Source: Fundidesulfovibrio putealis DSM 16056
Lineage (GTDB): Bacteria; Desulfobacterota; Desulfovibrionia; Desulfovibrionales; Desulfovibrionaceae
Reading direction: 5' to 3'
Assembly: GCF_000429325.1 (NCBI RefSeq)
Contig: NZ_KE386885.1
Span: 95,100-150,179 of the forward strand
DNA: 55,080 nt
Under the pieces are notes generated by a model, which was given only the letters and a program-made list of their open reading frames with translations, was not told the origin of the DNA and did not search any database. The translations under genes were made by a program, and so were the position numbers. This document shows positions 117-29,183 of the stretch, piece by piece. Within the stretch, counting starts at the first letter, position 1. Every line of letters starts with the position of its first letter.

Positions 117-226
117 CTGTGGGTGGGTGCTGTCACGGTCGGGTTCTGGCGGGCGGGCGACGAATCGTCTTCAAATCGGTTCTAGCCCGCCCGCCAGGAC
201 ACGAACGGGACAGCACCCACCCACAG
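117..226 (-). repeat. Long two-tier hairpin element, copy 1 (inverted)
   Basis: Lower stem 117-129 pairs perfectly with 214-226. Upper stem (about 147-158 with 185-196) pairs perfectly. The 26-nt apical loop at 159-184 contains, on the minus strand, GAACCGATTTGAAG followed by the self-complementary GACGATTCGTC. The loop matches copies 2 and 3 except for one base, but both stems have different sequences here. The asymmetric middle section keeps CTGTCCCGT. Orientation follows the glycosyltransferase gene that ends at 360. No open frame fits it. It is best described as a structured intergenic repeat of unknown function. Confidence 0.85.
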
Positions 227-249
227 CTCGCCGCAAATCTCCCGCCCAC

Positions 250-358
250 GACGCGAAGCGAATAGCCGGGTGCAGGGGAGGCTTCTCCCCTGGCGGGTGC
301 AGGGCGGAGCCCGCCGGGGTGCAGGGGCAGCGCCCCTGCCGGGTTCGGGCAGAGCCCG
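250..358 (-). repeat. Row of short GC-rich hairpins at a gene 3' end
   Basis: Directly after the glycosyltransferase stop there are four short inverted repeats in a row: TCGGGCTCTGCCCGA, CAGGGGCGCTGCCCCTG, GGCGGGCTCCGCC and AGGGGAGAAGCCTCCCCT (minus-strand sense), joined by CCTGCACCCG-like spacers. The same order (CGGGCTC-GCCCG hairpin, CAGGG hairpin, then CACCCGGCT and TTCGCTTCGCGTCGTG) follows tsaB at 27784-27888, also 3' of a gene and in its direction. Together with the two hairpins further downstream this makes one composite 3'-end module. Confidence 0.65.
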
Positions 359-359
359 A

Positions 360-1529
360 TTACCTCCTCGCGGCCTCGTAAATCCGTTCCAGCTTCGCCG
401 CCACGGCGTCCCAGTTCAGTTCATCCCGCACCAAACGCGCGGCGTTGGCCTGAATGGCCTCACGGCGGGTGGCGTCGGTGAGCGCCTCCACGATGCGGTC
501 CCCGAAGGCCGCCGCGTCGGTGACGGGCGCCACGTAGCCGCAGTCGTACTCGCGCAGATAGCGCTCGATCTCCCCCACGGCGTTGGACACGATGGGCACG
601 CCCGAGGCCAGGTAGTCGCCGAAGCGGATGGGGAAGCGCGCCTTCTCGATGGGGTCGTCGTCCATGGGCAAAAGCAGCGCGTCGGACGCGGCCAAGTAGG
701 CGGGCACGTCAGTGGGCGGCTTCTCGCCAAGGCGCAGAATGCTGTTGCCAGCACGCTCAAGGTAGGGCTGCAAGCGGCGTTCGAACTCGTCGGGAATGTG
801 CATCTTGCCCAGGAAGGCGAGCTTCAGGTCCGGCACGGCGACGCGGGCGCGCTCGAAGGCGTCCAGCAGCAGGAAGAGCGACTCGGTGTAGGTGTGGCCC
901 ATGGACAGCACCAGCGGCACGCCGGAAGGCAGGCCCACGTGCGCGCGGGCCTCGTCGCGGGTGAGCGGCGAGCGAGTCATCGTCGGGCAGTTGGGAATGG
1001 CGTGGATGCGGCTGTCCGGCACGCCAGCGGCCCGGAAGGAGTCCATGAGCATGGCGCTGGCCGCAGTGCACTGCTGTGCCATCAGGGGCATGTTGTCGTT
1101 GAACCAGCCGACCACTCGCTGATAGGGGCCAGGATGCTGGTTGGCGAAGCCGCCCTTCCAGAGGTCGTCGTGATCCAGCACCAGCTTGAGGCCGGGGCGC
1201 AGGTAGCGCGCGGCCAGGGTGGGCACGGCCATGGGGTGCAGCGGGAAGGCGAAGGTGTGCAGCACGTCGTAGCGCGAAAAGAGCGCGTAGGCCGTATTGT
1301 AGAGCATGCGCAGGGTGTGCAGCGTGTGGAAGCCGCGCAGCTTGTACTTGGGCAACAGCACCGTGGTCAGGCCGCCATCCACGCGTTTGGTGGTGGCCAG
1401 GGTGTCCTCGCGGTTGGCGCACAGGAGCGTCACCGTGTGGCCGCGCCGGGTCAGGCCTTTGGCCAGATGGTAGCAGCGGAAATAGGTGCCGTAGTTCTCG
1501 ACGTTGTGATTCAGAAAGAGGATGTGCAT
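360..1529 (-). CDS. Glycosyltransferase, family 4 (GT-B)
   Basis: A 389-aa protein that begins MHILFLNHNVENYG and has the two-lobed layout of GT-B enzymes. The N-terminal half carries the GLTRRGHTVTLLCAN pattern of GT4 acceptor domains; near residues 290-312 is EKARFPIRFGDYLASGVPIV, the E-x7-E-like nucleotide-sugar binding segment. It should transfer a sugar from a nucleotide donor to a lipid or polysaccharide at the cytoplasmic face. The ATG overlaps the TGA of the upstream radical SAM-SDR gene (TGATG), so the two are probably translationally coupled and act in one pathway. An upstream in-frame extension to 1634 exists but lies inside the neighbour and looks like a shadow. Donor and acceptor cannot be read from sequence. 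Confidence 0.88.
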   Translation of the reverse strand: MHILFLNHNVENYGTYFRCYHLAKGLTRRGHTVTLLCANREDTLATTKRVDGGLTTVLLPKYKLRGFHTLHTLRMLYNTAYALFSRYDVLHTFAFPLHPMAVPTLAARYLRPGLKLVLDHDDLWKGGFANQHPGPYQRVVGWFNDNMPLMAQQCTAASAMLMDSFRAAGVPDSRIHAIPNCPTMTRSPLTRDEARAHVGLPSGVPLVLSMGHTYTESLFLLLDAFERARVAVPDLKLAFLGKMHIPDEFERRLQPYLERAGNSILRLGEKPPTDVPAYLAASDALLLPMDDDPIEKARFPIRFGDYLASGVPIVSNAVGEIERYLREYDCGYVAPVTDAAAFGDRIVEALTDATRREAIQANAARLVRDELNWDAVAAKLERIYEAARR

Positions 1530-3721
1530 CAGAGATTGGTCCGTTTGAAGAGGCATTCCGGCAGGTTGCGGATGATGAACATGATGGGCCGCCAGATGGC
1601 CTTGGTATAGATGGAATCCTTGCCGGAGCGCCATGCGGCGTGGATGTCTCGGGCCACGCGCTCGGGCGTGGCCGTGAGCGATGCGGGCAGGTCCAGGTGG
1701 GCGGTCATCTTGGAGCGCACGAAACCGGGCGTGACCGTGAGCACGTTGACGCCCGAGGCGAACAGGCGGTGGCGCAGACCCGAGAGATAGGCCGTCAGCC
1801 CGGCCTTGGCCGCGCCGTAGGCGTAGTTGGACTTGCGCCCGCGCTCGCCCGCCACCGAGGACAGGCCGATGAGGAACCCCTCGCGGCGCTCTTCGAAGTC
1901 CTTGGCGATGATTTCCAGGACGCTGGCCGCGCCGGTGAGGTTCACTGCCAAAAGGCGCAGCGGGTCGGAGGCTTCCAGCAGGCCGAAGGCCAGCACCGCG
2001 CCGTCCGGCTTGTGGGGCAGGGACTGGTAAAACGCGGCGTGGGAGGCTGTGTCCGTGGCGTCGAAGGAGACGACGTCCACCTCCACGCCGAAGTCGCGCC
2101 GGAGTTCGACGGCCTTGGAATCCAGAGACGCGGTGTCGCGCGATGCCAGGATCAGGTTGGAACTCTCGCGAGCGGCGAACTCACGCGCGATGGCCAGCCC
2201 GATGTCCGAGTTGGCCCCCAGCACCAGCACGCGCTCGGCCTTGGGGGCCTTCTTCGGCGCGCCGGACAGGGTGTTTTTCAGCAGGCGGAAGCCGAAGCGG
2301 AAGTAGTTGGCCAGGATGCGCCGGTCGGTTCCGGCCTGGAGGAGCTTTCGCCCGATGTAGCTCGGCCGCAGGTGGAACTTCAGCAGCACGTCGCGCCGGA
2401 ACTTCTCGATTTCCGGCATGGTGAGGGTCATTGTGCCTACGGTAGGGGCGTTGAAGTAGTCCTTGCCCAGCACGGATTCCTGGATCAGGCCGCAGCTGAC
2501 GGCCTCGGCGTGCAGCTCGGTGCCGGGATAGGGCACGGCGATGTGCAGCTCCAGGAAATCCGGGTCCAACTCGAAGATGTGGCGGCGGGTGGCTTCCAGG
2601 TGCTCGCGGCCCTCCCAGGGCATGCCGATCAGGAAGAACCCGAAGGTGAGGAGCCCCGCTTCTTTGGCCCACTTGGCGGCCTGGATGTTCTCCTCCGCCG
2701 TGGTGCCCTTCTTGGAGCGGGCCAGCGTCTCCGGGTGGCCGGATTCGTAGCCGAAGGCAACCAGCCAGCACCCGGCGGCCTTCATGGCCTTGAGCGTCTC
2801 CAGGGTCAGGGGCTTCACCTTGGAGTTGGCCACCCAGCGAACCTTGCCCGCCAGGTCGGAATCCAGGATGGCCTGGCAGACTTTTAACGTCCACTTCTGG
2901 TCGATGGTGAAGGTGTCGGACTTGAAGAAGAAGTCCCGGATGCCGTGCTTGTGGTAGCACTCGCGCATCTCTTCCAGGATGTTCTCGGGCGAACGCAGGC
3001 GCAGCTTGGTGCCCGAAATGGTGGGCGTGACGCAGAAGACGCAGCGCGAGGGGCAGCCGCGCGAGGTGGCGATGGTGGCCTGGGGTTCGCCGGTGTCCGG
3101 GCGCACGTAGAGATGATTCTCCATGAGCGAGCGGTCCGGGAAGGGCAGGCTGTCCAGGTCCGTCTCCCAGGAGTCGAAGAAGGTGCGCTGCCACGTATCA
3201 TTCTGCTTGTACAGGATTCCGCGTATTGCCGGGACTTCCTCGGGCGCGTCGAAGTGCGCGGCGGCCAGCTTGCCCACGATGAAGTCGCTCTCCAGGCCGA
3301 TCAGGTAGTCCACGCTGGCGAGGTCCAGCTGATCCAGCAGCCCCTGCTCGGGATTGAAGAAGATGGCCCCCTTGAGCATGACCATCAGGTTCGGGCGGCG
3401 CTTCTTGAGGTCCGCCACCAGCGTCAGGTCCCGGAAGATGGTGGCGTTGGTGATGGACATGAAGACGGCGTCCGGGGCGAAGCGGTCGAAGTCGGCCAGG
3501 AGGTCGTCGAGCGAACGCAGGCTGGTCTGGTAGTCGCGCAGGAAGACCTCGAAACCGTGGGCCTTGAGGGTGGCCGCGCCGTAGCCCAGGTCGTTGGGGG
3601 CGCGCATGGTGGTGGCCGTGGAGTTCTCCACGTTGCCCTGGGACCGGTCCTCGCCGCGCTGGTAGAATCTGCCGGGCGGGTAGAAGAGCATCACCCGCCG
3701 AGGTGCTTGTGTAGTGTGCAT
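1529..3721 (-). CDS. B12-binding radical SAM enzyme fused to a DprE2-like short-chain reductase
   Basis: About 730 aa, one uninterrupted frame. Residues 9-115 form a cobalamin-binding-type fold; residues 215-430 a radical SAM core with the cluster motif GCPSRCVFC (Cys223, 227, 230). From about residue 495 a complete NAD(P)-dependent SDR follows: LGANSDIG nucleotide motif, Ser621/622, YGAAK (Tyr635, Lys639), and a C-terminal WRPIMFIIRNLPECLFK, a tail I associate with DprE2-type decaprenyl-phosphoryl-2-keto-pentose reductases. There is no stop or start between the halves. Start at 3721 is chosen because MHTTQ precedes the conserved VMLFYPPG; an ATG at 3691 is the alternative. The open frame continues upstream to 4246 but that part covers the divergent gene at 3782. 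Coupled by TGATG to the downstream glycosyltransferase. Substrate unknown. Confidence 0.85.
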   Translation of the reverse strand: MHTTQAPRRVMLFYPPGRFYQRGEDRSQGNVENSTATTMRAPNDLGYGAATLKAHGFEVFLRDYQTSLRSLDDLLADFDRFAPDAVFMSITNATIFRDLTLVADLKKRRPNLMVMLKGAIFFNPEQGLLDQLDLASVDYLIGLESDFIVGKLAAAHFDAPEEVPAIRGILYKQNDTWQRTFFDSWETDLDSLPFPDRSLMENHLYVRPDTGEPQATIATSRGCPSRCVFCVTPTISGTKLRLRSPENILEEMRECYHKHGIRDFFFKSDTFTIDQKWTLKVCQAILDSDLAGKVRWVANSKVKPLTLETLKAMKAAGCWLVAFGYESGHPETLARSKKGTTAEENIQAAKWAKEAGLLTFGFFLIGMPWEGREHLEATRRHIFELDPDFLELHIAVPYPGTELHAEAVSCGLIQESVLGKDYFNAPTVGTMTLTMPEIEKFRRDVLLKFHLRPSYIGRKLLQAGTDRRILANYFRFGFRLLKNTLSGAPKKAPKAERVLVLGANSDIGLAIAREFAARESSNLILASRDTASLDSKAVELRRDFGVEVDVVSFDATDTASHAAFYQSLPHKPDGAVLAFGLLEASDPLRLLAVNLTGAASVLEIIAKDFEERREGFLIGLSSVAGERGRKSNYAYGAAKAGLTAYLSGLRHRLFASGVNVLTVTPGFVRSKMTAHLDLPASLTATPERVARDIHAAWRSGKDSIYTKAIWRPIMFIIRNLPECLFKRTNL

Positions 3722-3781
3722 GCGCCGGGGAAGTTGGCCGGATTGCGGCTTTCCGTCAAGGGGTTCGTGGGGGGAGGGGGT

Positions 3782-4186
3782 ATGCAGCGAAGCTATCATG
3801 CCTCGCTTGCGGCCCTGAAACAGAACGACCCGCTTTTCGAGCGCACCATGCACGTCATGGAGCACTACCTCGGCAAACTTCCTCAGGTAATCAAGAACAT
3901 GTTCATGCCCGTCCTGGCGAGGGATTTCAGGCAATTCGTGTGGCTTTATGAGCACCTGCGCGAGGCTGCGGCCTTGGTGGAGAATCACGCGCATCACAAG
4001 CGTCGCAAGGAAAAGCGCAAGCAAGAGGGTGGTGCTGGAATACGCGCACCAGAAACCGGAAGGACTGCGGCGGACGTCTCGGCGCGCGATGCGGAACGCC
4101 GCGCCCTGGTCTCGCGGGTGAAGGCCGGTGGGGCCAAAGAGGGCGACCTGCTCAGGTATCTGGAACTGGTGGGCGCGGGCGAATAG
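3782..4186 (+). CDS. Hypothetical protein, 134 aa
   Basis: Starts MQRSYHASLAALKQ after a strong GGGGGAGGGGG ribosome binding site ending three bases before the ATG region, which decides this start against the longer frame reaching back over the opposite gene. The first 75 residues look helical (LFERTMHVMEHYLGKLPQVI, VWLYEHLREAAALVENH); then comes a basic patch HHKRRKEKRKQ and a second helical C-terminus. No signal peptide or membrane segment. I do not recognise the family. It is divergent from the radical SAM-SDR gene and 49 bp ahead of the next gene in the same direction, so the two could be co-transcribed. Confidence 0.65.
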   Translation: MQRSYHASLAALKQNDPLFERTMHVMEHYLGKLPQVIKNMFMPVLARDFRQFVWLYEHLREAAALVENHAHHKRRKEKRKQEGGAGIRAPETGRTAADVSARDAERRALVSRVKAGGAKEGDLLRYLELVGAGE

Positions 4187-4235
4187 CCCGGCCAACGACG
4201 AGCGTGCAAATAATACAAACAAAGGAGAAGAACTC

Positions 4236-5078
4236 ATGGGCTTCAAAGCGATCGCCCTGGATTACATGATGGATAACGGCATGGCGGATGCGTCGCCGAA
4301 GACGGCTCTGGCGTGGTTTTCGCCGGAGGAGGCGAAAAAACAAGGTGATTTTCTTCAGCCGCTATCGGCTCAAGCAGGAACGGAACCTCAGTCGGATATG
4401 ACCACCCCGCAAGACGGAGGCAATGGGATGACTTCTTTTGAGAGGGAGTCCCGAGGCAGCGCTGGGAGCGCTACGCCCGAAAGCCAACCGCCCGGGAACC
4501 GTAACACAGCTCAAGCAAACTCTAATCCCAGCATTACATCCTATAATGGGGTGATGGTTGACGTCAGGGATAATGGAGGTCGCCATTATGAACAAAATGG
4601 CAAAATTTTCTATAAGAAAGGCGAAACGTTTTACGGCGTCGAAAAAATACCCGGAGGCAACTACTCTGTTGCGGAAGTGCCAGAATCAGAAGCAAAAGGC
4701 ATCATCGCCAAGGAAATCATGGACAATGGCAAGAGCCTTTACGCCAGAAACAGGATCTATTATTTGCACGACGGCACCGCATATGACATTGGGCAGAAGG
4801 CCGACGGCTCCACCGAAGCCTATGCCGTGTCGCCACATGAGGACGCGGACATCTACACCGTCGCTCACTCAAAAGGGCGATCCATGCCCACTGCCGAGGA
4901 TCCGCTGATTGACCCTGTAGAGGTAGCAACCGCAGGTCTGATTGGTGGAGTTTCTGCTGCCGCAAAAACAGGAGGAACATTGATGGCACGCATAGGGGCT
5001 GGGGCTAAGTCCGCAGGCAGGGACATGGCCCAGGAAGCAGCCACACAAGTTATTCAAAACACTCTAAAGCGATGGTAA
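4236..5078 (+). CDS. Hypothetical repeat protein with glycine-zipper tail, 280 aa
   Basis: ATG at 4236 follows AAAGGAGAAG. The N-terminal 100 residues are polar and low-complexity (PESQPPGNRNTAQANS). Residues 112-147 and 163-199 are two copies of a motif of the form DNG-x3-Y-x2-N-x2-(F/Y)-Y-x3-G-x2-(F/A)-Y, seen as DNGGRHYEQNGKIFYKKG and DNGKSLYARNRIYYLHDG. Residues 228-262 are Ala/Gly-rich and hydrophobic (VATAGLIGGVSAAAKTGG, IGAGAKSAG), like a glycine-zipper or pore segment. No signal peptide. Codon and base use become AT-richer through the gene and into the region after it, which suggests acquisition. An effector or toxin-like role is only a guess from the architecture; I recognise no family. 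Confidence 0.7.
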   Translation: MGFKAIALDYMMDNGMADASPKTALAWFSPEEAKKQGDFLQPLSAQAGTEPQSDMTTPQDGGNGMTSFERESRGSAGSATPESQPPGNRNTAQANSNPSITSYNGVMVDVRDNGGRHYEQNGKIFYKKGETFYGVEKIPGGNYSVAEVPESEAKGIIAKEIMDNGKSLYARNRIYYLHDGTAYDIGQKADGSTEAYAVSPHEDADIYTVAHSKGRSMPTAEDPLIDPVEVATAGLIGGVSAAAKTGGTLMARIGAGAKSAGRDMAQEAATQVIQNTLKRW

Positions 5079-5096
5079 CATTTTAATACAACACCG

Positions 5097-5300
5097 ATGC
5101 CAGCCAGCCAAGAGCTGGCTGGCACCAGTATTGCTTGTGCACTTTGTTTTTTTACAAATGCATACATAGAATTCACGAACACAGAGGACAATGTCTTGGA
5201 CCAGAACAAGCGCGACCGCCTGATAAAGACGCTCATTAACATTGCATACATAGTTGCATTCTCAACCACAATAAACTTGCTAAAGGAGTGCACGAAATGA
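5097..5300 (+). CDS. Possible small membrane protein, 67 aa
   Basis: Low-GC open frame with two hydrophobic stretches (AGTSIACALCFFTNAYI and LINIAYIVAFSTTINLL) around a charged centre (DQNKRDRLIK). Its first ATG lies in the left arm of the hairpin at 5099-5123, and no ribosome binding site is evident, so the start or the gene itself is doubtful. Its position just after the 280-aa protein would suit an immunity-type partner, but that is speculation. Confidence 0.3.
   Translation: MPASQELAGTSIACALCFFTNAYIEFTNTEDNVLDQNKRDRLIKTLINIAYIVAFSTTINLLKECTK
5099..5123. other. Perfect 10-bp hairpin after the 280-aa gene
   Basis: GCCAGCCAGC (5099-5108), loop CAAGA, GCTGGCTGGC (5114-5123). It starts 20 bp after the stop at 5078, but no T-run follows, so it may be an attenuator or RNA-stability hairpin rather than a terminator. 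It also occludes the ATG of the small frame at 5097. Confidence 0.5.
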
Positions 5301-5383
5301 AGTCTCAAACAACTACATGTTTCACGTCCCACGCCATTACAATTCAACATGACTGCACTTCTTACATGGCCGACACGGCATAA
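5297..5383 (+). CDS. Possible 28-aa peptide overlapping the preceding small ORF
   Basis: ATG at 5297 overlaps the TGA of the 67-aa frame (ATGA) and has a near-ideal AAAGGAG seven bases upstream. It encodes MKSQTTTCFTSHAITIQHD and nine further residues. The good ribosome binding site is the only support; the peptide resembles nothing I know. Confidence 0.25.
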   Translation: MKSQTTTCFTSHAITIQHDCTSYMADTA

Positions 5384-5864
5384 AATCCAACAACAGCGCA
5401 CAAACAGGCAATCTACCAGAAATCATTTCCCACGCAACTGCCATGCCAACCCCTCTCCCTAGTCGACGAAATCGCTTTCCCGAATCATAAACGCCAAGCG
5501 CATGGCAATGGCAACCTGCGGGATGTGGCAGATCTCAAGCCCCACACGAAGCGCACGGGGGGGGGCGGGCCAAAAGGCGGCGGCTAACCTCCGCCATGCA
5601 AGTGGGCGAAGTCGCCCCCTTCGTTATTTGAAATGAAAAGTTCGGCAAAAGTTGAAATATGGCTCTATTTGAAAATAGTACAATATTACAAACAGCACAG
5701 TCTGCCCAACGACCCGCGAGATGGTTAGGTGTATGATGAACTTCATTTTGGGCACATGTCAAAGTATTCTGCGAACGCGTAATAAGTGAACACGAGCACA
5801 TACGTATACCCATGCACCATGGACAGAACAAAATCTACGTAGTCTCCGCCTTTGTATACAAGCA
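5384..5864. other. AT-richer gap with no convincing gene
   Basis: Frames here are short and lack ribosome binding sites; a 98-aa minus-strand frame at 5535-5831 has Cys/His-rich random-looking composition. Small inverted repeats occur (GGGCGAAGTCGCCC near 5605, and a GGCGG/CCGCC pair just before it). Base composition differs clearly from the flanking GC-rich genes, consistent with acquired or decaying DNA. Confidence 0.5.
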
Positions 5865-6131
5865 TCACCACCACCTCACAAACCTATTTATAAGGTAAAT
5901 AGCAAGCACACTGAGGGGGATGGAGATGGCAAGCGGGACCACTGAGAGAAGAACCTTCTTCCAAATTGGCATTTTGTAGTATTTATGCATGCGTACATTC
6001 CTCTTCAAGACATTGCTGTAGTACTGGGCACAAGACCGTACTTTATGCGTTTGACTTGGGCAGCTTGATGCCAAATGGGCAAGCCCCTGGCCGAGCGCCC
6101 AACCGCACCGAATCATCATAAGCTTCTTCAC
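5865..6131 (-). CDS. Possible small protein with C-terminal membrane helix
   Basis: 88 aa from a GTG start; ATG codons shortly downstream are alternatives. The last 40 residues contain a clean transmembrane helix (VLLSVVPLAISIPLSVLAIYLI) after a basic segment (YYKMPIWKK), followed by NRFVRWW. The N-terminal half is Cys-containing and unconvincing, so the true protein may be only the 41 residues from MHKYYK. No clear ribosome binding site. Same strand and same AT-richer patch as the next gene. Confidence 0.3.
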   Translation of the reverse strand: MKKLMMIRCGWALGQGLAHLASSCPSQTHKVRSCAQYYSNVLKRNVRMHKYYKMPIWKKVLLSVVPLAISIPLSVLAIYLINRFVRWW

Positions 6132-6246
6132 TTAGGGCAGCTGGCAAAACAAGGCATTATTTTCCCATCTATAAGGGAATAGCAAAGCACTGCAACTATC
6201 AAAAAATGCAAAATTGTCATTGCAACAGCTTTGTTATAGCGCATCA

Positions 6247-6597
6247 CTATCTTCCAAGAATTTTGCACAGGTTCATTGAATTTGCTATCTCTTCAAAATA
6301 ATTACTCAACACAAGCCACACAAGAAACAGCATAGAAGAAATATTATTAACCCAGACGGTCCAGGCCGGGGGAGGTGATTCACCGGACGTGTCATACAGC
6401 CGAAGGTCCGACGTTATCGTCCCTTGGCCTGCCAGTTCCTCAGGCGACAGCGCCTCCCGCATGGCCGACGGCTCTATATTCTTTGACGGCTGGAACGGCC
6501 TGGGCTTGAACATCAGCAGGAGAAAGAGAATCGGAATAAGCGCGAGGGACACAAGCCAGACCATCGCCCAGAATTCATTCGCTACTCCACTGACCAC
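6247..6597 (-). CDS. Hypothetical membrane protein, 116 aa
   Basis: GTG start preceded by AGAGAGGG at a good distance. Two transmembrane helices (about residues 9-29, MVWLVSLALIPILFLLLMF, and 82-101, ISSMLFLVWLVLSNYF) flank a soluble stretch containing EALSPEELAGQGTI. I do not recognise the family. Divergent from the histidine kinase at 6774. Confidence 0.55.
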   Translation of the reverse strand: MVSGVANEFWAMVWLVSLALIPILFLLLMFKPRPFQPSKNIEPSAMREALSPEELAGQGTITSDLRLYDTSGESPPPAWTVWVNNISSMLFLVWLVLSNYFEEIANSMNLCKILGR

Positions 6598-6773
6598 ATG
6601 GCCCTCTCTTTGATTCTTGATGAAAATCGCCTTCTCGAAAATACTACGCCAAGCACGTACTCAAATCAACGCCGCGCCAGCCCTCCCCCCTCTTGTAACC
6701 ATCCCCCCGCCGTACCCCTCTTGCCTACAGGTGGCCGCGAGGCCTGCCCAATCAGCGAAACGCGCGAGGTCTC

Positions 6774-7769: not shown

Positions 7770-7805
7770 GCCCATACGCTGAGATCCTTATCGTACATAT
7801 TTGAG

Positions 7806-7838
7806 GCCCCGTCCCGGCGTCACGCGCCTGGGCGGGGC
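7806..7838 (+). terminator. Rho-independent terminator after the histidine kinase
   Basis: GCCCCGTCC (7806-7814) pairs with GGGCGGGGC (7830-7838), one G-T wobble, with inner GGCG/CGCC pairing; followed by TTTTGCCG. Confidence 0.7.
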
Positions 7839-7886
7839 TTTTGCCGTTCCGCCCTGACCTGCGTGTGCCGGAAAACAAATGCGGCC

Positions 7887-7915
7887 TTGGCTGATACGAT
7901 CCATGGTGCTATGAA
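7887..7915 (+). promoter_or_regulatory. Candidate sigma70-type promoter for guanine deaminase
   Basis: TTGGCT (7887-7892), 17-bp spacer, TATGAA (7910-7915), about 115 bp before the guaD start. Only a consensus match; no purine riboswitch fold is evident in the leader. Confidence 0.35.
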
Positions 7916-8030
7916 TACGTCCTTGAGTTGCAGGCTCGCGACGCCCCGGTCCGGCTCCAGGCTCCGACTCTGGCCCGGCCCTGCAGCCTGCCGACAGCTT
8001 TACGACGTACATCTCCACGGAGGACTCACC

Positions 8031-9440: not shown

Positions 9441-9442
9441 CC

Positions 9443-18488: not shown

Positions 18489-19552
<1,064 letters not shown>

Positions 19553-19556
19553 GTTC

Positions 19557-20364: not shown

Positions 20365-20515
20365 CCGCATTCCTCCGGCCGGCAGCCGGTCAGCCGCGGT
20401 ACTCGTGCATTGCTTCACAAGTGCGGCTGGCCTAGCACAGGCGCGATGATTTCGTCAACGCATCTGACCCCTACGGCCGGGATTTTTCACGAGTTTTTTT
20501 CATGTTCGGGGGACT

Positions 20516-20533
20516 ATGTTCCAAAAAGAACAA
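20516..20533. promoter_or_regulatory. Candidate Rex operator upstream of atpZ
   Basis: On the minus strand the site reads TTGTTCTTTTTGGAACAT, i.e. TTGTT-N8-AACAT with the dyad TGTTC/GAACA, one base off the TTGTT-N8-AACAA Rex consensus form. It is about 150 bp before atpZ, in an AT-rich patch of an otherwise GC-rich region that would suit a promoter. The rest of the gap 20365-20699 shows no gene. Pattern match only. Confidence 0.45.
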
Positions 20534-20699
20534 ATCAACAGAGCAACTTGTGCCGTTTGCAACAAGGTCCGGCCCATGAACCCGCGCGCGTTTCCGGCTG
20601 GGGCCACCCCTACGTCAGGCCAGCGCAAAAGGAAATCCCCCCTGCCGGCCGCGCCCGAGGGATCCGCATGCGCGCGCCGTTGGTGCGCGTCCTGGCCCC

Positions 20700-22271: not shown

Positions 22272-22382
22272 GTTTCCTGCTATGCCCTTTTCGGACCGGA
22301 CGCGCAACGGCGCTCCTGCGTTCTTGCCCCCCGGGGGCTTCAAGGCTATGAACCCCGGAACATCCCGCTTTCAGGAATATTC

Positions 22383-23534
22383 ATGCCCACCAGCCAGCTG
22401 CCCCGCACGCTTGTATCGTCCACGACCCCCATGGCGTTCGCGCTGCTGGCCGTCGTCCTGCTCGGCGGTTGCTCGCTCGGCCCGGCCAAGCTCCCGGCCA
22501 CGCGCATGGACTACAACCTGGCCGTGCAGCGCTCCGCCAACGAGGAGATGCTCCTGAACCTTGTGCGCATGAAATATTTCGAGCAGCCCCTGTTTCTGCA
22601 GGTGGGCTCCATCGCCTCCAGCTTCAACTACAACGTGACCGGGACCGCCACCGGCACCTTCCCCGACCAGCGCGATTTCCTGCGCAGCATCTACTACAAC
22701 TATACTCCCAGCATCTCCGCCACCTACTCGGACTCCCCCACCGTGACCTACACGCCCTACCAGGGCCAGACCTACGCCCAGCAATTCCTGGCCGAAGTGG
22801 ACTTCGACCGCTTCGTGGTGCTCTACAAGTCCGGGTGGGACATCGAATACCTGCTGCGCGTGCTGGTGACCCGCCTGGGCCGCCTGGACCACTCCTTCGA
22901 CCCGCGCGTGGGCTATTTCGACCTGGAGGCCCACCGCCGCTTCCTGGAGCTGACGAAAATCATCGCGGACATGGACGACCGGGGCAACCTGGACATCGTG
23001 ACCGCCTCGCCCGGCAAGGACAAGGCCAACGTCACCCTAATGACGCTGCGCTTCGCAAGCGAAGCCGAGGCCGCGCGCGTGGCCGAGCTTACGGGCGAGG
23101 ACCTCAACCCCAAGCGCACGCCCCAGGGGCATCTGGTGGCCAAGGTGCGCCTCGTTCCGGTCAAGGAGCGCGAGCTGGCCCTGGAGCAGCAGGACGCGGG
23201 CGGCTTCCCCACGCTGGCCCTGGGCCTTCGCAACTGCCTGCGGGCCATGGACCTCCTGTCGCAGGGCATCGAGGCCCCCAAGGAGCTGGTGGCCAAAAAA
23301 GCCGCCTTCGACCTGCGCGAGCACTTCTCCGACGTCATGGACATCCGCTCCTCGCGCACCCGCCCGGAAGGCAGCTTCGTGGCCGTGAACCACGACGGCT
23401 GGTGGTACTCCATCCGGCGCGAGGACACCCGCTCCAAGGAAGTCTTCCAGCTGATGCTGAACCTCTTCGCCCTGCAATCCGCCGACCCGCCCAAGAACAC
23501 CCCGGTCTTGACCCTGCCCGTGGGCGGCAATTAG
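22383..23534 (+). CDS. Hypothetical lipoprotein, 383 aa
   Basis: Signal peptide with lipobox LLGGC (Cys30), so it is probably membrane-anchored. The body begins MDYNLAVQRSANEEMLLNLVRMKYFEQPLFLQVGSI and includes a Tyr/Thr-rich stretch (YYNYTPSISATYSDSPTVTY) and a C-terminal WWYSIRREDTRSKEVFQLMLNLFAL. I recognise no named family. ATG at 22383 follows TCAGGAAT. It ends 35 bp before hisI on the same strand; a functional link to hisI is unlikely. Confidence 0.82.
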   Translation: MPTSQLPRTLVSSTTPMAFALLAVVLLGGCSLGPAKLPATRMDYNLAVQRSANEEMLLNLVRMKYFEQPLFLQVGSIASSFNYNVTGTATGTFPDQRDFLRSIYYNYTPSISATYSDSPTVTYTPYQGQTYAQQFLAEVDFDRFVVLYKSGWDIEYLLRVLVTRLGRLDHSFDPRVGYFDLEAHRRFLELTKIIADMDDRGNLDIVTASPGKDKANVTLMTLRFASEAEAARVAELTGEDLNPKRTPQGHLVAKVRLVPVKERELALEQQDAGGFPTLALGLRNCLRAMDLLSQGIEAPKELVAKKAAFDLREHFSDVMDIRSSRTRPEGSFVAVNHDGWWYSIRREDTRSKEVFQLMLNLFALQSADPPKNTPVLTLPVGGN

Positions 23535-23569
23535 GGTGGCTTCTTCATACCACGCTTCAAGGATGACAC

Positions 23570-23956
23570 ATGTTCAAACCTGATTTCGAAAAGGGCGGCG
23601 GCCTGATCCCGGCCATCGCCCAGGACGCCGCCACCGGCGAAGTGCTGATGCTGGCCTACATGAACGAACTGGCCTGGGAAAAGACCCTGGAAACCGGCGA
23701 GGTTCACTACTGGAGCCGCAGCCGCAGCAAACTCTGGCACAAGGGCGGCACCTCCGGCCACACCCAGAAGGTCAAGTCCATCCGCCTGGACTGCGACCGC
23801 GACGCCGTCGTCGTGCTGATCGAGCAGATCGGCGGCGCGGCCTGCCACACCGGCTACCGCTCCTGCTTCTTCAGCGAGCTCGGCCCGGACGGCGAGGCGC
23901 GCGAGTGCTCGCCCAAGGTGTTCGACCCCGAAAAAGTCTACGGGCCGGGGGCCTGA
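23570..23956 (+). CDS. hisI: Phosphoribosyl-AMP cyclohydrolase
   Basis: 128 aa, the usual size of the stand-alone cyclohydrolase without a HisE domain. It opens the purine ring of PR-AMP in histidine synthesis. Metal ligands are seen in LDCDRDAVV (the Asp/Cys cluster) and [13 protein letters not shown]. Preceded by AAGGATGACAC. Its TGA overlaps the cdsA ATG (TGATG). Confidence 0.95.
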
Positions 23957-24747
23957 TGGCGGCAAGCGCGCACCGCTCCCGCCTGTTGACCGCAGCCGTT
24001 GGCCTGCCCCTCTTGGCCGTGTGCGTCTGGCAGGGCGGCGGGTACATGTTCGCCGTGGTGCTGGCCGCATCCCTGGCCGGGCTCTGGGAGTGCCTGGGGC
24101 TCTTCCCTGGCGCGGGCATGTGTCTGCGCGGCTTGACCCTGGCGCTCGGCGCGGCCATGGTCTGGCTGGGCTGGCGCTTCGGCCCGGCAGCCGCCCTGGC
24201 CGTGCCCCTGGCCGCGTTCTGGCTGGAGGAGTTGGCCCGGCTGGCCCACGCCCCGTTGGGCGGTCCAAATGGCCCTCCCCGCTGGCTGCTGGCGGCCTCG
24301 CTCTTGTACGTTCCGGGCAGCCTCCAGTTCCTGACCTCCTTCACCCCCGGCGAGACCGCCCTGGTGATGGCCGTGGTCATGGCCACGGACACCGGCGCCT
24401 ACTACGCGGGCCACGCCATCGGCGGACCCAAGATCTGGCCGTCCGTGTCGCCCAAGAAGACCTGGGCCGGAAGCTTCGGCGGCCTCGCGGCAACGCTTGT
24501 CGTGTGTCTGGCCGTGGGCGCGCTCTGGGGACAGGCCTCCTTGTGGGCCTTCGCGGCGCTTGGCCTCTGCATGTCCGTGGCCTCCCAGATGGGCGACTTC
24601 ATGGAGTCTTCTTTGAAGCGCTCCGCCGACATCAAGGACTCCGGCGCCCTGCTGCCCGGCCACGGCGGCATCCTGGACCGCATCGACGGCCTCCTCCCCG
24701 CAATTCTCGTGTACGCCCTGGCGCGCACCATGGCCCACTACCTATGA
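23956..24747 (+). CDS. cdsA: Phosphatidate cytidylyltransferase (CDP-diacylglycerol synthase)
   Basis: 263-aa membrane protein with about seven helices. It makes CDP-diacylglycerol for phospholipids. The C-terminal signature is intact: SPKKTWAGSFGG, GDFMESSLKR, IKDSGALLPGHGGILDRIDGLL. ATG overlaps the hisI stop, and its TGA overlaps the dxr ATG (ATGA). An undecaprenyl diphosphate synthase gene often precedes cdsA in other bacteria; hisI takes that place here. Confidence 0.94.
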   Translation: MAASAHRSRLLTAAVGLPLLAVCVWQGGGYMFAVVLAASLAGLWECLGLFPGAGMCLRGLTLALGAAMVWLGWRFGPAAALAVPLAAFWLEELARLAHAPLGGPNGPPRWLLAASLLYVPGSLQFLTSFTPGETALVMAVVMATDTGAYYAGHAIGGPKIWPSVSPKKTWAGSFGGLAATLVVCLAVGALWGQASLWAFAALGLCMSVASQMGDFMESSLKRSADIKDSGALLPGHGGILDRIDGLLPAILVYALARTMAHYL

Positions 24748-25955
24748 TCGACTACATCTCCGCCCTCCCCGGGGCCACCGGCCTGCCCCCCTTCCCCCGG
24801 CGTCTGTGCGTCTTGGGGTCCACCGGTTCCATCGGCGAGTCCGCCCTGGCCGTGGTGGACGACCATCCCGGCCAGTTCGAAGTGCTCGCCCTGGCTGGCG
24901 CTCGCAACGTCATGCGTCTGGCCGAACAGGCCGCGCGGTTTCGTCCCCGCTATCTGGCCGTACTGGACGAGGCCGGAGCCGCATCGCTCAAGAGCATGCT
25001 CCCCTCCGGCTACAGCCCGGAGATTCTCTGCGGCCCCGACGCCTATGTCACCCTGGCCTCCCTGCCTGACGTGCAGGTGGTGCTCTCGGCCATCGTGGGC
25101 GCGGCAGGTCTTCCGCCGACGCTGGCCGCCGCCAAGTCCGGAAAAATCATCGCCCTGGCCAACAAGGAATCACTGGTGCTGGCCGGGCATCTGATCCGCC
25201 GGGCCTGCCGCGAGTCCGGGGCAGTGGTACTGCCCGTGGACTCCGAGCACAACGCGCTCTTTCAATCCTTGGCCGGGCACAACGGCGACGACGTGGACCA
25301 CCTGATCCTCACGGCTTCCGGCGGCCCCTTCCGCGACTGGCCCAGCGCCGATCTGGCCAACGCCACCGCAGCCCAGGCCCTCAAGCACCCCAACTGGTCC
25401 ATGGGCGCGAAAATCAGCATCGACTCGGCCACGCTCATGAACAAGGGGCTGGAGGTCATCGAGGCCTGCTGGCTCTACGGCCTGCCCGAGGACCGCGTGA
25501 AGGTGCTGGTGCACCCGCAGTCCATCGTGCACTCCCTGGCCGCCTACCGCGACGGCTCCCTCCTGGCCCAGATGGGCCAGCCCGACATGCGCATCGCCAT
25601 CGCCTACTGTCTGTGCTATCCGTTGCGCCTGCCGCTGAAGATTGCGCCCCTGGACCTTGCGGCTCTGGGCACGCTGACCTTCCGCGAGCCGCGCACCGAC
25701 GACTTTCCCTGCCTTGATCTCGCGCGGCGCGCCGTGGCCGCGAGCCCGGCACATTGCGTGGCCCTGAACGCCGCCAACGAGGTGGCCGTGGAGCTGTTCC
25801 TGGCCGGGCGCATCGGCTTTTCAGACATCGCGCGCGCCGTGGAATGGGCGCTTGCGCGGCAAGAATCACTGGACGATCCCGATTTCATGACCATAATGGA
25901 GGTTGACCTGGCCGTCCGAAGTACGGTGGCCACATACCTCACAGGAACCACATGA
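24744..25955 (+). CDS. dxr: 1-deoxy-D-xylulose-5-phosphate reductoisomerase
   Basis: 403 aa. MEP-pathway enzyme converting DXP to MEP with NADPH. N-terminal LGSTGSIGESALAV binds NADPH; ANKESLVLAG, PVDSEHNALFQ (metal Asp/Glu), SASGGPFRD-like LTASGGPFRD, and HPNWSMGAKISIDSATLMNKGLEVIEA are the catalytic segments. ATGA overlaps at both ends tie it to cdsA and rseP. Confidence 0.96.
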   Translation: MIDYISALPGATGLPPFPRRLCVLGSTGSIGESALAVVDDHPGQFEVLALAGARNVMRLAEQAARFRPRYLAVLDEAGAASLKSMLPSGYSPEILCGPDAYVTLASLPDVQVVLSAIVGAAGLPPTLAAAKSGKIIALANKESLVLAGHLIRRACRESGAVVLPVDSEHNALFQSLAGHNGDDVDHLILTASGGPFRDWPSADLANATAAQALKHPNWSMGAKISIDSATLMNKGLEVIEACWLYGLPEDRVKVLVHPQSIVHSLAAYRDGSLLAQMGQPDMRIAIAYCLCYPLRLPLKIAPLDLAALGTLTFREPRTDDFPCLDLARRAVAASPAHCVALNAANEVAVELFLAGRIGFSDIARAVEWALARQESLDDPDFMTIMEVDLAVRSTVATYLTGTT

Positions 25956-27043
25956 TCGACTTTCTGGGCAAGGCCCTCTCCTTCGTCGTCGTCATCGGCG
26001 TGCTCATCTTCATCCACGAACTCGGGCACTTCCTGGTGGCCCGCTTCTTCGGAATGGGCGTGCGCGTGTTCTCACTGGGCTTCGGCCCCAAACTGCTGTC
26101 CTTCACTTCAGGCCCCACCGAGTACCGCGTCAGCCTAATCCCCCTGGGCGGCTACGTGCAGCTGGTGGCCCAGGACTCCGAGGACGACGAGACAGTCGTC
26201 GGATTCCACCCCAGCACATGGTTCATCCGCCGCCCCTCCTGGCAGCGCATGCTGGTGGTGGCCGCCGGGCCACTGTTCAACCTGGCGCTGGCCTGGGCGC
26301 TCTACGCATCCATGTTCTACACCAGCGGACGCTTCGAGACGCCCGCCGCCGTGGGACAGGTCAACGCCGCCAGCGCCGCCGAACGCGCGGGCATGCAGGC
26401 CGGGGACGCCATCCTCACCGTGGACGGCCAGTCCGTACAATACTTCCGCGAGCTCCAGGCCCGCGTGGAGGCCAGCAAGGGCGCGCCCCTCAAGCTGACC
26501 CTCAAGCGCGGGACCGAAACCCTGGACGTCACCGTCACGCCGGACATCATCGCCCAGAAGAACCTCTTCGGCGAGGACATCAAGAAACCCATCCTGGGCA
26601 TCCGGTCCACCCAGGAGTCCGTCAACATCCCCCTGGGTTTCGTCGCTTCGGTCTCTGAAGGCCTCAAGCAGACCTGGGAAGTCACCGCCCTCACCGGGCA
26701 GGTGTTCTGGAAGCTGGTGCAGGGGATCGTGCCCATGTCCTCCATCGGCGGCCCCATCATGATCGCGGAGCTTGTGGGCAAGCAGTCCGAGCAGGGACTC
26801 GCGCATCTGGCGGCGCTGACAGCCATGATCAGCGTGAACCTGGCCATTCTGAACCTGTTGCCCATCCCGGTGCTGGACGGCGGGCATATCCTGTTTTTTG
26901 CCCTGGAGACCCTGCTGCGCCGCCCCGTGCCGGAACGAATCCGCGCCGTGACCACCAAGATCGGCTTCGTGCTGCTCATGGCGCTCATGCTCACGGCCAC
27001 CGCCAACGATATCATCCGGCTGGTGACGGGCGTCGGCAAGTGA
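25952..27043 (+). CDS. rseP: Site-2 intramembrane zinc metalloprotease RseP
   Basis: 363 aa. HELGH (His22-Glu23-His26) in the first helix, one PDZ domain (about 130-215: AAERAGMQAGDAILTVDGQSVQ), and the third ligand in IPVLDGGHILFF near residue 310. It cleaves anti-sigma factors or signal-peptide remnants within the membrane. Single PDZ rather than the two of E. coli, as in many bacteria. Overlaps dxr and tsaB by four bases. Confidence 0.95.
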   Translation: MIDFLGKALSFVVVIGVLIFIHELGHFLVARFFGMGVRVFSLGFGPKLLSFTSGPTEYRVSLIPLGGYVQLVAQDSEDDETVVGFHPSTWFIRRPSWQRMLVVAAGPLFNLALAWALYASMFYTSGRFETPAAVGQVNAASAAERAGMQAGDAILTVDGQSVQYFRELQARVEASKGAPLKLTLKRGTETLDVTVTPDIIAQKNLFGEDIKKPILGIRSTQESVNIPLGFVASVSEGLKQTWEVTALTGQVFWKLVQGIVPMSSIGGPIMIAELVGKQSEQGLAHLAALTAMISVNLAILNLLPIPVLDGGHILFFALETLLRRPVPERIRAVTTKIGFVLLMALMLTATANDIIRLVTGVGK

Positions 27044-27780
27044 TCCTGATCGTCAACACCGCCGAGGAGACCCTCCAGGCGCTCCTGGTCCAGGACGGCC
27101 GCGTCCTGGACAGCTTCCAGGAGCCCTGCTCCGGGCGCATGAACGAGGTGATGGGGCCAGCCGTGGAGCGCCTGCTCTCCGGCCCCGGCCTTTCATCTCT
27201 CACTGCCCTGGCCTGCGTACGCGGCCCCGGCAGCTTCACCGGCCTGCGCCTTGGCCTGGCCTACTGCCACGGCCTGAGCCTCGCGCGGGAACTCCCCATG
27301 GCCGGGCTGGACCATCTGCCGCTTTTGGCCGACTCCGCTTTCGAAGCGGGCCAGACCTTCGACGAAGTGCACGTGCTCACGCACTCGCGCACAGCGCGCG
27401 TCTATCATCAGGCCTTCGCCCCAGGCCCCGAGGCGCTCTCGCCGCCGCGCGATCTGACCGCGCAGGCCGCCTGCGACCTGATCGCCGCACGCGCCGACGC
27501 CCCCGCCCGCAAGATCGCCCTGCTCGGCACAGGGCTGCGCCGCAACGCAGCCGCGTTCGCGCCCCTGGCCGACCTCGGCCACGTGACGCTTATGGACCTG
27601 GAAGTGCCGTCGCAGCAGGCGCTTGTGCGCGCCGCCCAGGTCGCGAGCTATGACGGCCCGCCCGTGGAAGCCTGCTATCTGCGCGGCTCCGACGCCGAGG
27701 AGAACCTCGCCGCCATCGCCGCAGGGCGGGGACTGAGCGAAGCCGAGGCTCTGGCGCGCATGGAAGAGGCGATGAAGTAG
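27040..27780 (+). CDS. tsaB: tRNA threonylcarbamoyladenosine synthesis protein TsaB
   Basis: 246 aa, inactive paralogue of TsaD that holds the t6A complex together. Starts MILIVNTAEETLQALLV from GTG, overlapping the rseP TGA (GTGA). The signature ACVRGPGSFTGLRLGLAYCHGLS is intact. Last gene of the hisI-cdsA-dxr-rseP-tsaB run; a composite repeat module begins immediately after it. Confidence 0.93.
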   Translation: MILIVNTAEETLQALLVQDGRVLDSFQEPCSGRMNEVMGPAVERLLSGPGLSSLTALACVRGPGSFTGLRLGLAYCHGLSLARELPMAGLDHLPLLADSAFEAGQTFDEVHVLTHSRTARVYHQAFAPGPEALSPPRDLTAQAACDLIAARADAPARKIALLGTGLRRNAAAFAPLADLGHVTLMDLEVPSQQALVRAAQVASYDGPPVEACYLRGSDAEENLAAIAAGRGLSEAEALARMEEAMK

Positions 27781-27783
27781 GAG

Positions 27784-27845
27784 TGTCGGGCTCCGCCCGA
27801 ACCCGCCAGGGCTCTGCCCTGGACCCGGCAGGGGAGAGTCAAACG
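27784..27845 (+). repeat. Row of short hairpins 3' of tsaB
   Basis: TCGGGCTCCGCCCGA-like and CCAGGGCTCTGCCCTGG hairpins separated by ACCCG spacers begin four bases after the tsaB stop, then GCACCCGGCT and TTCGCTTCGCGTCGTG lead to the long hairpin. Same order and orientation relative to the gene as after the glycosyltransferase (250-358). Confidence 0.65.
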
Positions 27846-27916
27846 CACTCTTGGCCCTGCACCCGGCTCTTCGCTTCGCGTCGTGTACGGGAGGCTTGAG
27901 GCGGGACGGGCCTGAT

Positions 27917-28030
27917 GGCCGGAGCTGGGAGTTGTCCCGTCCGCGCCATGGACGGCGGGCTCGAACCGATTTGAAGACGATTCGTCGCCCGCCGTCCATG
28001 GCGCGTCCGTTACACCTCCCACCCCCGGCC
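27917..28030 (+). repeat. Long two-tier hairpin element, copy 2
   Basis: Upper stem 27945-27960 pairs perfectly with 27987-28002; 26-nt apical loop 27961-27986 identical to copy 3. Lower stem 27917-27931 pairs with 28016-28030 with one or two mismatches. The internal loop keeps TGTCCCGTCC on the left and GCGTCCGTTACAC on the right, as in copy 3. Relative to copy 3 the upper stem has a compensated change (GGACGG/CCGTCC against GGGCGG/CCGCCC). It lies within a direct duplication of about 310 bp (about 27866-28178). Confidence 0.9.
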
Positions 28031-28131
28031 TGCGTAAACTGCGTTTTATCCTGAGGAAATCCGATTCAAATCAGGATCTTTTGACACAGTACATTCCGGC
28101 TGGCATCGTCGGGAGAGTCAATTTCAAGAAC

Positions 28132-28167
28132 AAGCCCTGAAGCGCGGTTTTGCGCGCTTCAGGGCTT
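28132..28167 (+). terminator. Terminator-like hairpin, copy 2
   Basis: AAGCCCTGAAGCGCG (28132-28146) pairs perfectly with 28153-28167 across a GTTTTG loop; TCTTGCG follows. It is 101 bp after the long hairpin, the same distance as in copy 3. Confidence 0.65.
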
Positions 28168-28449
28168 TCTTGCGAGATATCGAAACACATCGATTTGTTG
28201 CGGGAAGCGAGCTGAAGCCCCCGAAACCACAGGGCCGAGACCACCCATGAAATAAATCGAAAAAACAGACCACTTTCCTCTGGACAACCATCGAAGCCGA
28301 GCATATCTGGAAGACGTGTTCAGGCGACTGTTGATTCAACCTCGAACGGAGGGATGCCATTGAATCATGCTGAAACTGAAAAGTACATTCTCGGATTGGG
28401 CAAGTTAAGCTAAGAACACAAACTGTATTTTTACGGCTACGATGTCTTT

Positions 28450-28925
28450 TGTTGATGATGATTGGAATGTCTCTGGCAACAGCTACAGTTGACGACGACT
28501 TGATTGCCTTGAGTTACCGCTACGAAAGACCGAAATGCCTCAGACTATGTGCATGGCTACAGATGATTTGAACGCTTTCTGATCAGGCTACAGCTACTGA
28601 CGAGTTACGTTGCTTCTGGCTACAGTTACGAGCGATTGGAATGTCTCTGGCTACGGTTACTGCTACGAGTGACTTGAGTGCCTTTTGTTCAGTTTGCAGC
28701 TACTGACGATTTGAGTTGCCTCTGACCACAGTTACGAGCGATTGGAATGTCTCTGGCTACAGTTACTGCTACGAATGACTTGAGTGCCTTTTGTTCAGTT
28801 TGCAGCTACTGACGATTTGAGTTGCCTCTGGCTACAGTTACGAACGATTGGAATGTCTCTGGCTACGGTTACGGCTACAGATGATTTGACGTCTTTGGTT
28901 TGTGTTATGGCTGAGGACACTGCTA
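28450..28925. repeat. Degenerate minisatellite array
   Basis: About a dozen units of 30-40 bp. On the minus strand each starts GTAGC or GTAAC and ends near TCAAATCGTC, with CCAGAGGCA in the middle. A higher-order unit of exactly 106 bp repeats from 28630, 28736 and 28842; the first two full copies differ at about four positions. Units become more divergent towards 28450. Stops occur in all frames on the plus strand, so it is not a protein repeat. Confidence 0.85.
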
Positions 28926-28957
28926 CTTGAACTGTGACGATAGCCCGCATCGATACT

Positions 28958-28987
28958 GAGGCCCTCTCCGCCAACGGAGGGGGCCTC
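28958..28987 (+). terminator. Terminator-like hairpin after the minisatellite
   Basis: GAGGCCCTCTCCG pairs with CGGAGGGGGCCTC (one T-G wobble), CCAA loop, followed by TTCATTTGT. Confidence 0.6.
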
Positions 28988-29069
28988 TTCATTTGTACTG
29001 TTTCCCCCTGAGGACGGCGAATCCAAATACCGGCTGCTTGCTTCGCGTGGTATGCGGGAGGCTTGTGGT

Positions 29070-29183
29070 GGCCGGGGGTGGGAGCTGTCCCGTCCACGCC
29101 ATGGGCGGCGGGCTCGAACCGATTTGAAGACGATTCGTCGCCCGCCGCCCATGGCGCGTCCGTTACACCTCCCACCCCCGGCC
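29070..29183 (+). repeat. Long two-tier hairpin element, copy 3
   Basis: Lower stem 29070-29084 and 29169-29183 is a perfect 15-bp pair; upper stem 29098-29113 and 29140-29155 a perfect 16-bp pair; apical loop 29114-29139. Near-identical to copy 2 over about 310 bp (about 29031-29332), including the downstream AGGAAATCCGAT and CTTTTGACACAGT stretches. Confidence 0.9.

Follow-up and report, generated by a model that had tools for sequence, protein, structure and literature searches.

The function of interspersed palindromes is a long-standing question, as is whether they stay palindromic through selection or through repair. The closest described systems are the repetitive extragenic palindromes (REPs), which lie mainly between convergent or tandem genes (PMC3733652), the bacterial interspersed mosaic elements (BIMEs), the enterobacterial repetitive intergenic consensus (ERIC) and the target hairpins of diversity-generating retroelements (DGRs). 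Here, we describe a family of long hairpins in a 55,080-nucleotide stretch of the Fundidesulfovibrio putealis DSM 16056 genome, hereafter the window (contig NZ_KE386885.1; G000:C28:95100-150179, G000 being the window's own genome of 4.7 Mb). A preliminary description, made from the letters alone, had reported a family of three copies; we find that G000 holds around 50, of which three lie within the window, and that within the genomes searched the family is restricted to one genus.

The elements share much with GTAG/CGTC REPs and BIMEs, which are likewise intergenic palindromes by gene 3' ends, combined with other palindromes and showing complementary stem changes (PMC3733652). Intergenic placement in convergent or tandem regions is shared with the GTAG REP/RAYT systems, and the combination of palindromic units with other intergenic repeat modules with BIME mosaics. 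Whereas REPs measure 20-40 bp, with GTAG stems of 6-13 bp and mostly short loops, the elements here span ~90-114 nt; their arms measure 41 bp in G001 and G003 and ~46 bp in G000, and their recurring loop 9 nt. They differ from GTAG REPs in having neither an invariant foot tag nor a RAYT match in the genus, and from CGTC REPs (8-9 bp stem, 4-5 nt loop, terminal CGTC) in arm length and foot profile. There is no invariant tetranucleotide at either foot; by eye, the 5' foot of some G001 and G003 copies has TGTAG or GGAG. A match to a REP-type family, which the preliminary description had named as a ground for refutation, exists in kind, these being interspersed palindromes of the BIME/ERIC type, but not in name, with no invariant GTAG/CGTC tag or RAYT match.

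ERIC copies share sequence along the whole element. In the present family the arms vary freely from species to species and the loop alone is shared; the comparison with ERIC was one of size, place and Rfam scans. ERIC, described as one long stem-loop (PMC2267715), resembles the family in that each copy is such a hairpin, copies number in the tens and they are intergenic. DGR target hairpins also have a GC-rich stem of free sequence and a loop that is conserved and, in the DGR, required, but their stem is 7-10 bp, their loop is a 4-nt GRNA, and there is one per target alongside a reverse transcriptase, compared with 41-46 bp, 9 nt and tens of copies here (PMC3240598). The reverse transcriptase domain RVT_1 (PF00078) is absent from four of the seven genus genomes, including G000, and present in three. 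The view that no named family has this loop is borne out by Rfam, in that the hairpins of the window and of six loci gave no match above the gathering threshold: the window yielded only a tRNA, and the six loci, searched at E up to 1, yielded one tRNA elsewhere in L218 and sub-threshold microRNA-type matches for the L200 and L218 hairpins. Among the matches listed in a search of open-licence PMC papers, we found no description of this hairpin family.

The design is new for its kind, with a recurring 9-nt loop on arms that are free in sequence and bounded in length. We read the family as a genus-wide, BIME/ERIC-like palindromic gene-end repeat which is kept as a hairpin and whose loop is read by a putative factor, a reading that we regard as evenly poised between right and wrong. 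Since copies differ from one another in around half of their stem positions while pairing is kept and the loop is nearly constant, the family lets selection and repair be separated, and seven related genomes with orthologous copies are at hand for that separation. The fixed loop could serve directly as bait to capture such a factor; should there be none, the family would represent a clean natural experiment in templated palindrome repair.

Size and distribution of the family

Searching G000 with the 14-base word GAACCGATTTGAAG, at most one mismatch being allowed, gave 50 matches (34 exact and 16 with one mismatch). All except one fold as the same ~110-nt hairpin, with minimum free energies (MFE) between -45.3 and -96.5 kcal/mol, and the remaining match is a truncated copy next to a full one. 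Per-genome matches to one loop word numbered 48 in G000, 11 in G002, 2 in G004, 4 in G005 and 18 in G006 (the last incomplete), with a single match, in G013, for the reversed control. The 16-base loop word RTATTTGAAGAAYATC gave 34 matches in G001 and 50 in G003; the copies fetched amount to 29 and 36 distinct ones respectively when collapsed on the inner 33 bases, or 25 and 31 over the whole 93 bases, the other matches being mostly cut by contig ends or unfetched. A chance origin was rejected, given that the reversed 14-mer (across the 4.7 Mb of G000) and the reversed 16-mer both gave no match. A scan for the loop on paired arms likewise gave none in 158 kb of other G000 sequence and none in 20 shuffles of it.

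The covariance model that had been proposed as a check was built from G000 copies (R1) and found matches in 6 of 119 genomes, every one a member of the genus. A second model, built from ten sister-species copies (R2), matched all seven genus genomes and, marginally, 2 of 240 others, these counts being low because only 15 candidates per genome were scored. Of the two outside matches, L221 (E 0.003) is without the loop, whilst L222, from another genus of the family (genome G169; E 0.006), is a long hairpin with the exact loop ATTTGAAGA and 33 arm pairs; it may be chance or a distant relative, and we count it as possible chance. Loop-word matches outside the genus (four in one search, five for RTATTTGAAGAAYATC) were rejected as not such hairpins, the five making 3-12 arm pairs. 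No blastn match was found in phages or plasmids, and there were no exact matches in viral contigs.

As many as 18 of the 50 G003 matches lie within 30 nt of a contig end, and several contigs begin in the loop: the hairpin DNA folds hard enough to break the G001 and G003 assemblies. Because assemblies break inside hairpins, copy counts are uncertain, and one copy has perhaps been counted on two contigs. Runs of G or N flank other hairpins (L261, L279, L278, L314 and L319), and there is an N gap beside copy 1 in L115.

Stem pairing and covariation

From the tip, the G000 hairpin comprises the 9-nt loop ATTTGAAGA, a 6-bp inner stem GAAYCG/CGATTC that usually has one C.A mismatch, a 2x3 internal loop and an upper stem with several subfamilies; further out, a conserved interior places TGTCCCGT across from ACCGTnACA, and the outer stem is different in most copies. 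The 26-nt apical loop of the preliminary description thus resolves into the inner stem closing the shorter loop, and the palindrome GACGATTCGTC placed there is mostly the 3' half of that stem.

Across 49 G000 copies, RNAalifold yields 34 pairs, and double compensatory changes occur at 19 of these; 94.6% of cells are paired compared with 82.8% when shuffled (reached by 0 of 500 shuffles) and 35-47% when the 3' partners are slid; double-change cells number 157 against 41 in the shuffles. In 43 copies from G001, G002 and G003, with 41 pairs, 84.2% of cells are paired, as opposed to 55.3% shuffled and 38-46% slid, and there are 487 double-change cells against 165. These 43 were taken from 48 copies, omitting those with runs of G or N (L261, L279 and L278) or with other loops (one copy each in L272 and L234), and the pool was picked at 24 or more arm pairs, so the 84.2% is biased upward and it is the shuffle comparison and an unselected set that carry the point. 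Copies in the unselected set were chosen by RTATTTGAAGAAYATC alone, so pairing is not built into it, and those with both 42-nt arms make 33-38 arm pairs in G001 (23 of 23) and 23-40 in G003 (29 of 29). Compared within one genome, the 5' arms of different copies have a mean identity of 0.51-0.52, in G001, G002 and G003 alike. Gapless pairing drops between positions 41 and 42 from 0.75 to 0.25 in G001 and from 0.69 to 0.34 in G003, which means that the arms end sharply. Homologues whose stems diverge without compensation, which by the preliminary description would refute it, were looked for and, in the main, not found.

Conservation of the loop

The loop is most often ATTTGAAGA, with variation mainly at positions 3 and 4. 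For a view independent of the loop, we searched 400 kb of G003, in stretches picked for holding known copies, for palindromes whose loop could be any 7-11 bases. At 30 or more gapless pairs of 41, there were nine palindromes, eight with exactly ATTTGAAGA; the ninth is intergenic, and its loop ATCGGAAGA differs at positions 3 and 4 only. Lowering the threshold to 27 pairs gave 16 palindromes, of which 10 have the exact loop and four of the other six lie within called genes, and the loosest threshold (24 of 41) gave 128, again with 10 exact loops, the rest being mostly in genes and near chance. In 213 kb of G000, the palindromes with at least 28 pairs were the three window copies only. The hairpin with the variant loop ATCGGAAGA, which has 36 pairs and lies between genes at L352:10405 in G003, was missed by the loop-based searches; further loop variants of this type may exist.

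Placement at gene ends

Genes were called with our own codon model, trained on G000 and also used for the sister species. Copies from the sampled genomes with both neighbours called were compared with background intergenic regions, taken at 150 bp or longer: 1 of 135 copies lies in a divergent region against 16 of 53 for the background (p 3e-9), and 62 of 135 in a convergent one against 8 of 53. The copies are intergenic with at least one gene tail adjacent; none of 51 in G000 lies inside a called gene (2 of 47 in a looser set), and G001 and G003 show one overlap each. In tandem regions, the UCUUCAAAU strand is sense for the gene with the adjacent tail in a ratio of 47:15 (p 6e-5) with G006 left out, and 51:21 (p 5e-4) with G006 included.

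Gene-tail modules, such as GCCTCCGGCGGCCAGAGAGG..CCTCTCTGG, ending GCTTCGCG, recur genome-wide with or without the hairpin. When two 5-kb regions centred on G006 copies served as queries, G000 returned 85 and 88 matches, mostly to gene-tail modules and to the hairpin, and some G000 module matches, at 90-98%, fall at places without a listed hairpin match. These intergenic mosaics, in which the hairpins sit among further palindromic modules of gene ends, are a BIME-like architecture. Other gene-tail modules of ~85-90 bp (G000 matches to L191:2274-2362 and L196:2221-2310) have many copies, a number of them at 90-98%; they are more uniform than the hairpin family and look recently copied or homogenised.

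Orthologous copies

Most sampled sites are common to G006 and G000, with flank identity of ~85-95%. Over 15 G006/G000 pairs with 686 paired positions, 584 positions are unchanged and 17 show compensated double changes, where 5.2 would be expected if changes were independent; there are also one other double and 21 single pair-keeping changes. In eleven G001/G003 pairs, with 451 paired positions, compensated doubles number 48 and other doubles 12; single changes that gain or lose a pair number 67, and further singles 18. N runs (L319 and L314) and small indels inflate these counts. Some loci are common to distant sister species in the same arrangement (L208/L117 and L215/L161), whilst at L202/L109 and L217/L103 the same gene tail stands on the opposite side of the element. 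The L185 intergenic region of G006 is unlike its G000 ortholog and is 82% identical over 575 nt to another G000 locus (L100 and L161 were compared), and entire gene-end cassettes may be exchanged between loci.

Strand asymmetry

The UCUUCAAAU strand folds better as RNA in 108 of 120 copies, and by 106 to 13 with the loop masked (2 of 122 copies were dropped for N or runs of G). Since perfect stems are identical on both strands, this difference comes from mismatches. The majority favours the UCUUCAAAU strand in each of the seven genomes, for example in 4 of 6 copies in G004 and 13 of 17 in G003, and A.C mismatches exceed G.T on the ATTTGAAGA strand by 102:42 (A3) and 39:22 (A1). As evidence for RNA over DNA, the excess is a hint only.

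A proposed loop-reading factor and its difficulties

A loop-reading factor is, we think, the most likely reason for the fixed loop. The hairpin itself would be the working part, and a putative trans-acting factor, either protein or RNA, may read the loop and ignore the stem sequence. Its site of action would be at transcript ends, in protecting or processing the 3' end or in separating neighbouring convergent transcripts, and the acting form is more likely RNA with the loop UCUUCAAAU than extruded DNA. The copies presumably spread earlier by a DNA copying route and would now be mostly inherited in place. More specifically, and more tentatively, one putative factor could recognise the 9-nt loop (UCUUCAAAU in RNA, or ATTTGAAGA/TCTTCAAAT in DNA) on a size-bounded hairpin whose ~41-bp stem is almost unrestricted in sequence, and do so at as many as ~50 gene ends in one genome; this somewhat doubtful proposal resembles DGR hairpins in its logic, but would amount to a genome-wide gene-end code. 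The histone-mRNA hairpin follows a comparable logic.

Several observations weigh against a loop-reading factor and against simple selection on the hairpin. The loop-free scan covered one sister genome, in stretches selected for known copies. The loop is looser in G000, where 31 of 47 copies are exact and 16 are one-base variants, mostly at positions 3 and 4, although this is the looser set and includes some doubtful hairpins. Between G006 and G000, whose sets were both picked with loop-containing queries, 6 of 135 loop bases have changed compared with 8.7% of arm sites, and the loops of one ortholog pair found by its flanks (L196/L289) differ at position 3. The absence of loop differences in 11 G001/G003 ortholog pairs (0 of 99) proves nothing, because both sides were selected by the exact loop and the count is circular; another invariant-loop count is also circular, only positions 3 and 4 having been free to vary.

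The bias of the strand signal persists where the UCUUCAAAU strand runs antisense to each of the two neighbours (18 to 3); being independent of the neighbours, it is no proof that neighbouring genes transcribe the element, and the orientation in tandem regions is not obligatory (4:6 in G006). Mismatches seen once are unbiased (A.C to G.T 17:19 in A3 and 12:7 in A1), and the signal rests on mismatches common to several copies. Sign tests by column yielded p values of 0.21 and 0.05. The bias may therefore reflect a few ancestral conserved wobble positions, the independent cases being a handful of lineages.

As for the stems, the 15 G006/G000 pairs hold 63 pair-breaking single changes against the 17 compensated doubles: compensation is above chance, yet pairs are often broken on that time scale. 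At four G001/G003 loci (L331/L240, L282/L326, L311/L314 and L247/L279), moreover, the arms have changed in blocks, with 5-15 paired positions differing on both sides whilst the flanks are 89-96% identical; hairpin identity there is 0.60-0.69, and that of the next 120 nt is 0.86-0.92 at three of the four. The earlier argument, from a conserved loop and changing but paired stems to selection on structure, is hence borne out in part: pairing exceeds that of the shuffles, but the argument is weakened by the single changes that often break pairs and by the block changes.

Alternative explanations

The strongest alternative, which we nonetheless consider unlikely, is that the family is non-autonomous mobile DNA, the loop of its single-stranded hairpin being recognised by a putative transposase and any host function being secondary or absent; the element would have moved between gene-end modules, as is thought for TnpA-REP with REPs. 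TnpA-REP, for which a folded hairpin is recognised by its cognate protein, is also the nearest model for the reading of a loop (PMC8266576). Mobility would suit the variation in copy number among sister species (from 48 in G000 to 2 in G004), the 81% mean column identity shared by G000 copies, a sign that they multiplied in that lineage, and a convergent or tandem placement typical of REPs (PMC3733652). One site is also occupied in G006 and empty in G000: inverted GCTTCGCG and CGCGAAGC modules enclose a spacer that holds the hairpin in G006, where G000 has only ~35 nt, but the whole spacer differs, which is no clean insertion. Against mobility, the Y1 transposase PF01797, the TnpA-REP type, gave no match in any of the seven genus genomes while being found in 5 of 14 control genomes. 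No protein is common to the neighbours of the sampled sister-species loci (G000 loci being outside that comparison), and the strongly paired, arm-diverged hairpins of G003 mostly retain the exact loop, which would be unexpected of dead copies. A search for PF04986, the Y2 transposase of IS91-like elements, speaks neither way, with no match in the seven genomes and none in the control genomes.

We consider it improbable that pairing is kept mainly by templated repair. One arm would be copied from the other during replication, so that both change together without structural selection, and the unpaired loop alone would be under selection or simply lie beyond templating. It is the block changes that speak for this, since they outpace point mutation plus compensation and suggest templated arm copying or exchange, at least sometimes. 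Gene conversion was rejected as their source for want of a clear donor, the best match among other copies being 0.64-0.87, and hairpins that stop sequencing may stall polymerases too. However, assembly runs of G or N adjoin or enter the hairpin in all but one of the four block cases (L331 at locus L261, L279 and L314), leaving L282/L326, with 11 compensated and 4 single changes, as the clean one. Templated repair also leaves the recurring loop and the sharp arm end unexplained, and should have erased conserved mismatches such as the C.A found in 7 copies at columns 30/85 of A1.

It is very improbable that the hairpins are bidirectional terminators, or that they belong to clusters of hairpins in which termination does without a U-tract, even though a gene tail adjoins in nearly every case and it has been suggested that gene-end hairpin clusters depend less on a U-tract for termination (PMC8355165). 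Unlike a Rho-independent terminator, the family is without a U-tract on the UCUUCAAAU strand, which is the strand measured: U makes up 0.09-0.11 of the 20 nt after the hairpin in G000, G001 with G003, and G002, and 0.20 in G004 with G005, the G000 stretch still including some stem. A fixed loop is not needed for termination, and a separate terminator-like repeat lies beside each window copy. Kissing loops between convergent transcripts were dropped because every hairpin has that property on its two strands.

The window copies and their surroundings

The three hairpins reported for the window are present, and their surroundings are as follows (repeats without a strand are given by position only).

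51..80: terminator-like inverted repeat CCCAGAAACGCG..CGCGTTTCTGGG, past the 3' side of copy 1 (by eye)
114..227, minus strand: hairpin copy 1 (L025:1882-1995, minus), MFE -86.3 kcal/mol
168..176, minus strand: terminal loop of copy 1, 9 nt, ATTTGAAGA (plus strand: TCTTCAAAT)
360..1529, minus strand: glycosyltransferase gene (PF00534, PF13439), stop codon toward copy 1
27040..27780, plus strand: gene with a TsaD-family match (PF00814), stop codon toward copy 2
27918..28031, plus strand: hairpin copy 2 (L027:1456-1569), MFE -77.3 kcal/mol
27969..27977, plus strand: loop of copy 2, 9 nt
28133..28166: terminator-like inverted repeat AGCCCTGAAGCGCG..CGCGCTTCAGGGCTTT, 3' of copy 2 (by eye and palindrome scan)
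29071..29184, plus strand: hairpin copy 3 (L027:2609-2722), MFE -87.6 kcal/mol
29122..29130, plus strand: loop of copy 3, 9 nt
29288..29321: terminator-like inverted repeat, 3' of copy 3 (by eye)
29443..30042, minus strand: MetW gene (PF07021), convergent, facing copy 3

Copy 1 was recovered by model R1 at G000:C28:95213-95326 (minus strand; E 1.3e-26), and a fourth G000 copy lies 436 bases from it, just beyond the window. As first described, the loop segment is identical in copies 2 and 3 and one base off in copy 1, and TGTCCCGT is retained in all three. The stems of copy 1, which had been called unrelated, belong instead to another subfamily, with GGCGGGC/GCCCGCC common to both. Copies 2 and 3 are not mutually independent, since they lie in a duplicated unit of ~300 bp (27860-28200 and 29030-29330) that takes in a CTTCGCGT module upstream, the hairpin itself and the terminator-like repeat downstream (all by eye).

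The spacer between copies 2 and 3, which is without a clear gene, holds a tandem array at 28591-28889 (106-bp unit, 2.8 copies, 91% matches), and degenerate units resembling it seem to run on upstream, from ~28440 (by eye). Elsewhere in the window, tandem repeats of 21, 42 and 63 bp occur at 34942-35098, within a long minus-strand gene at 33794-37147.

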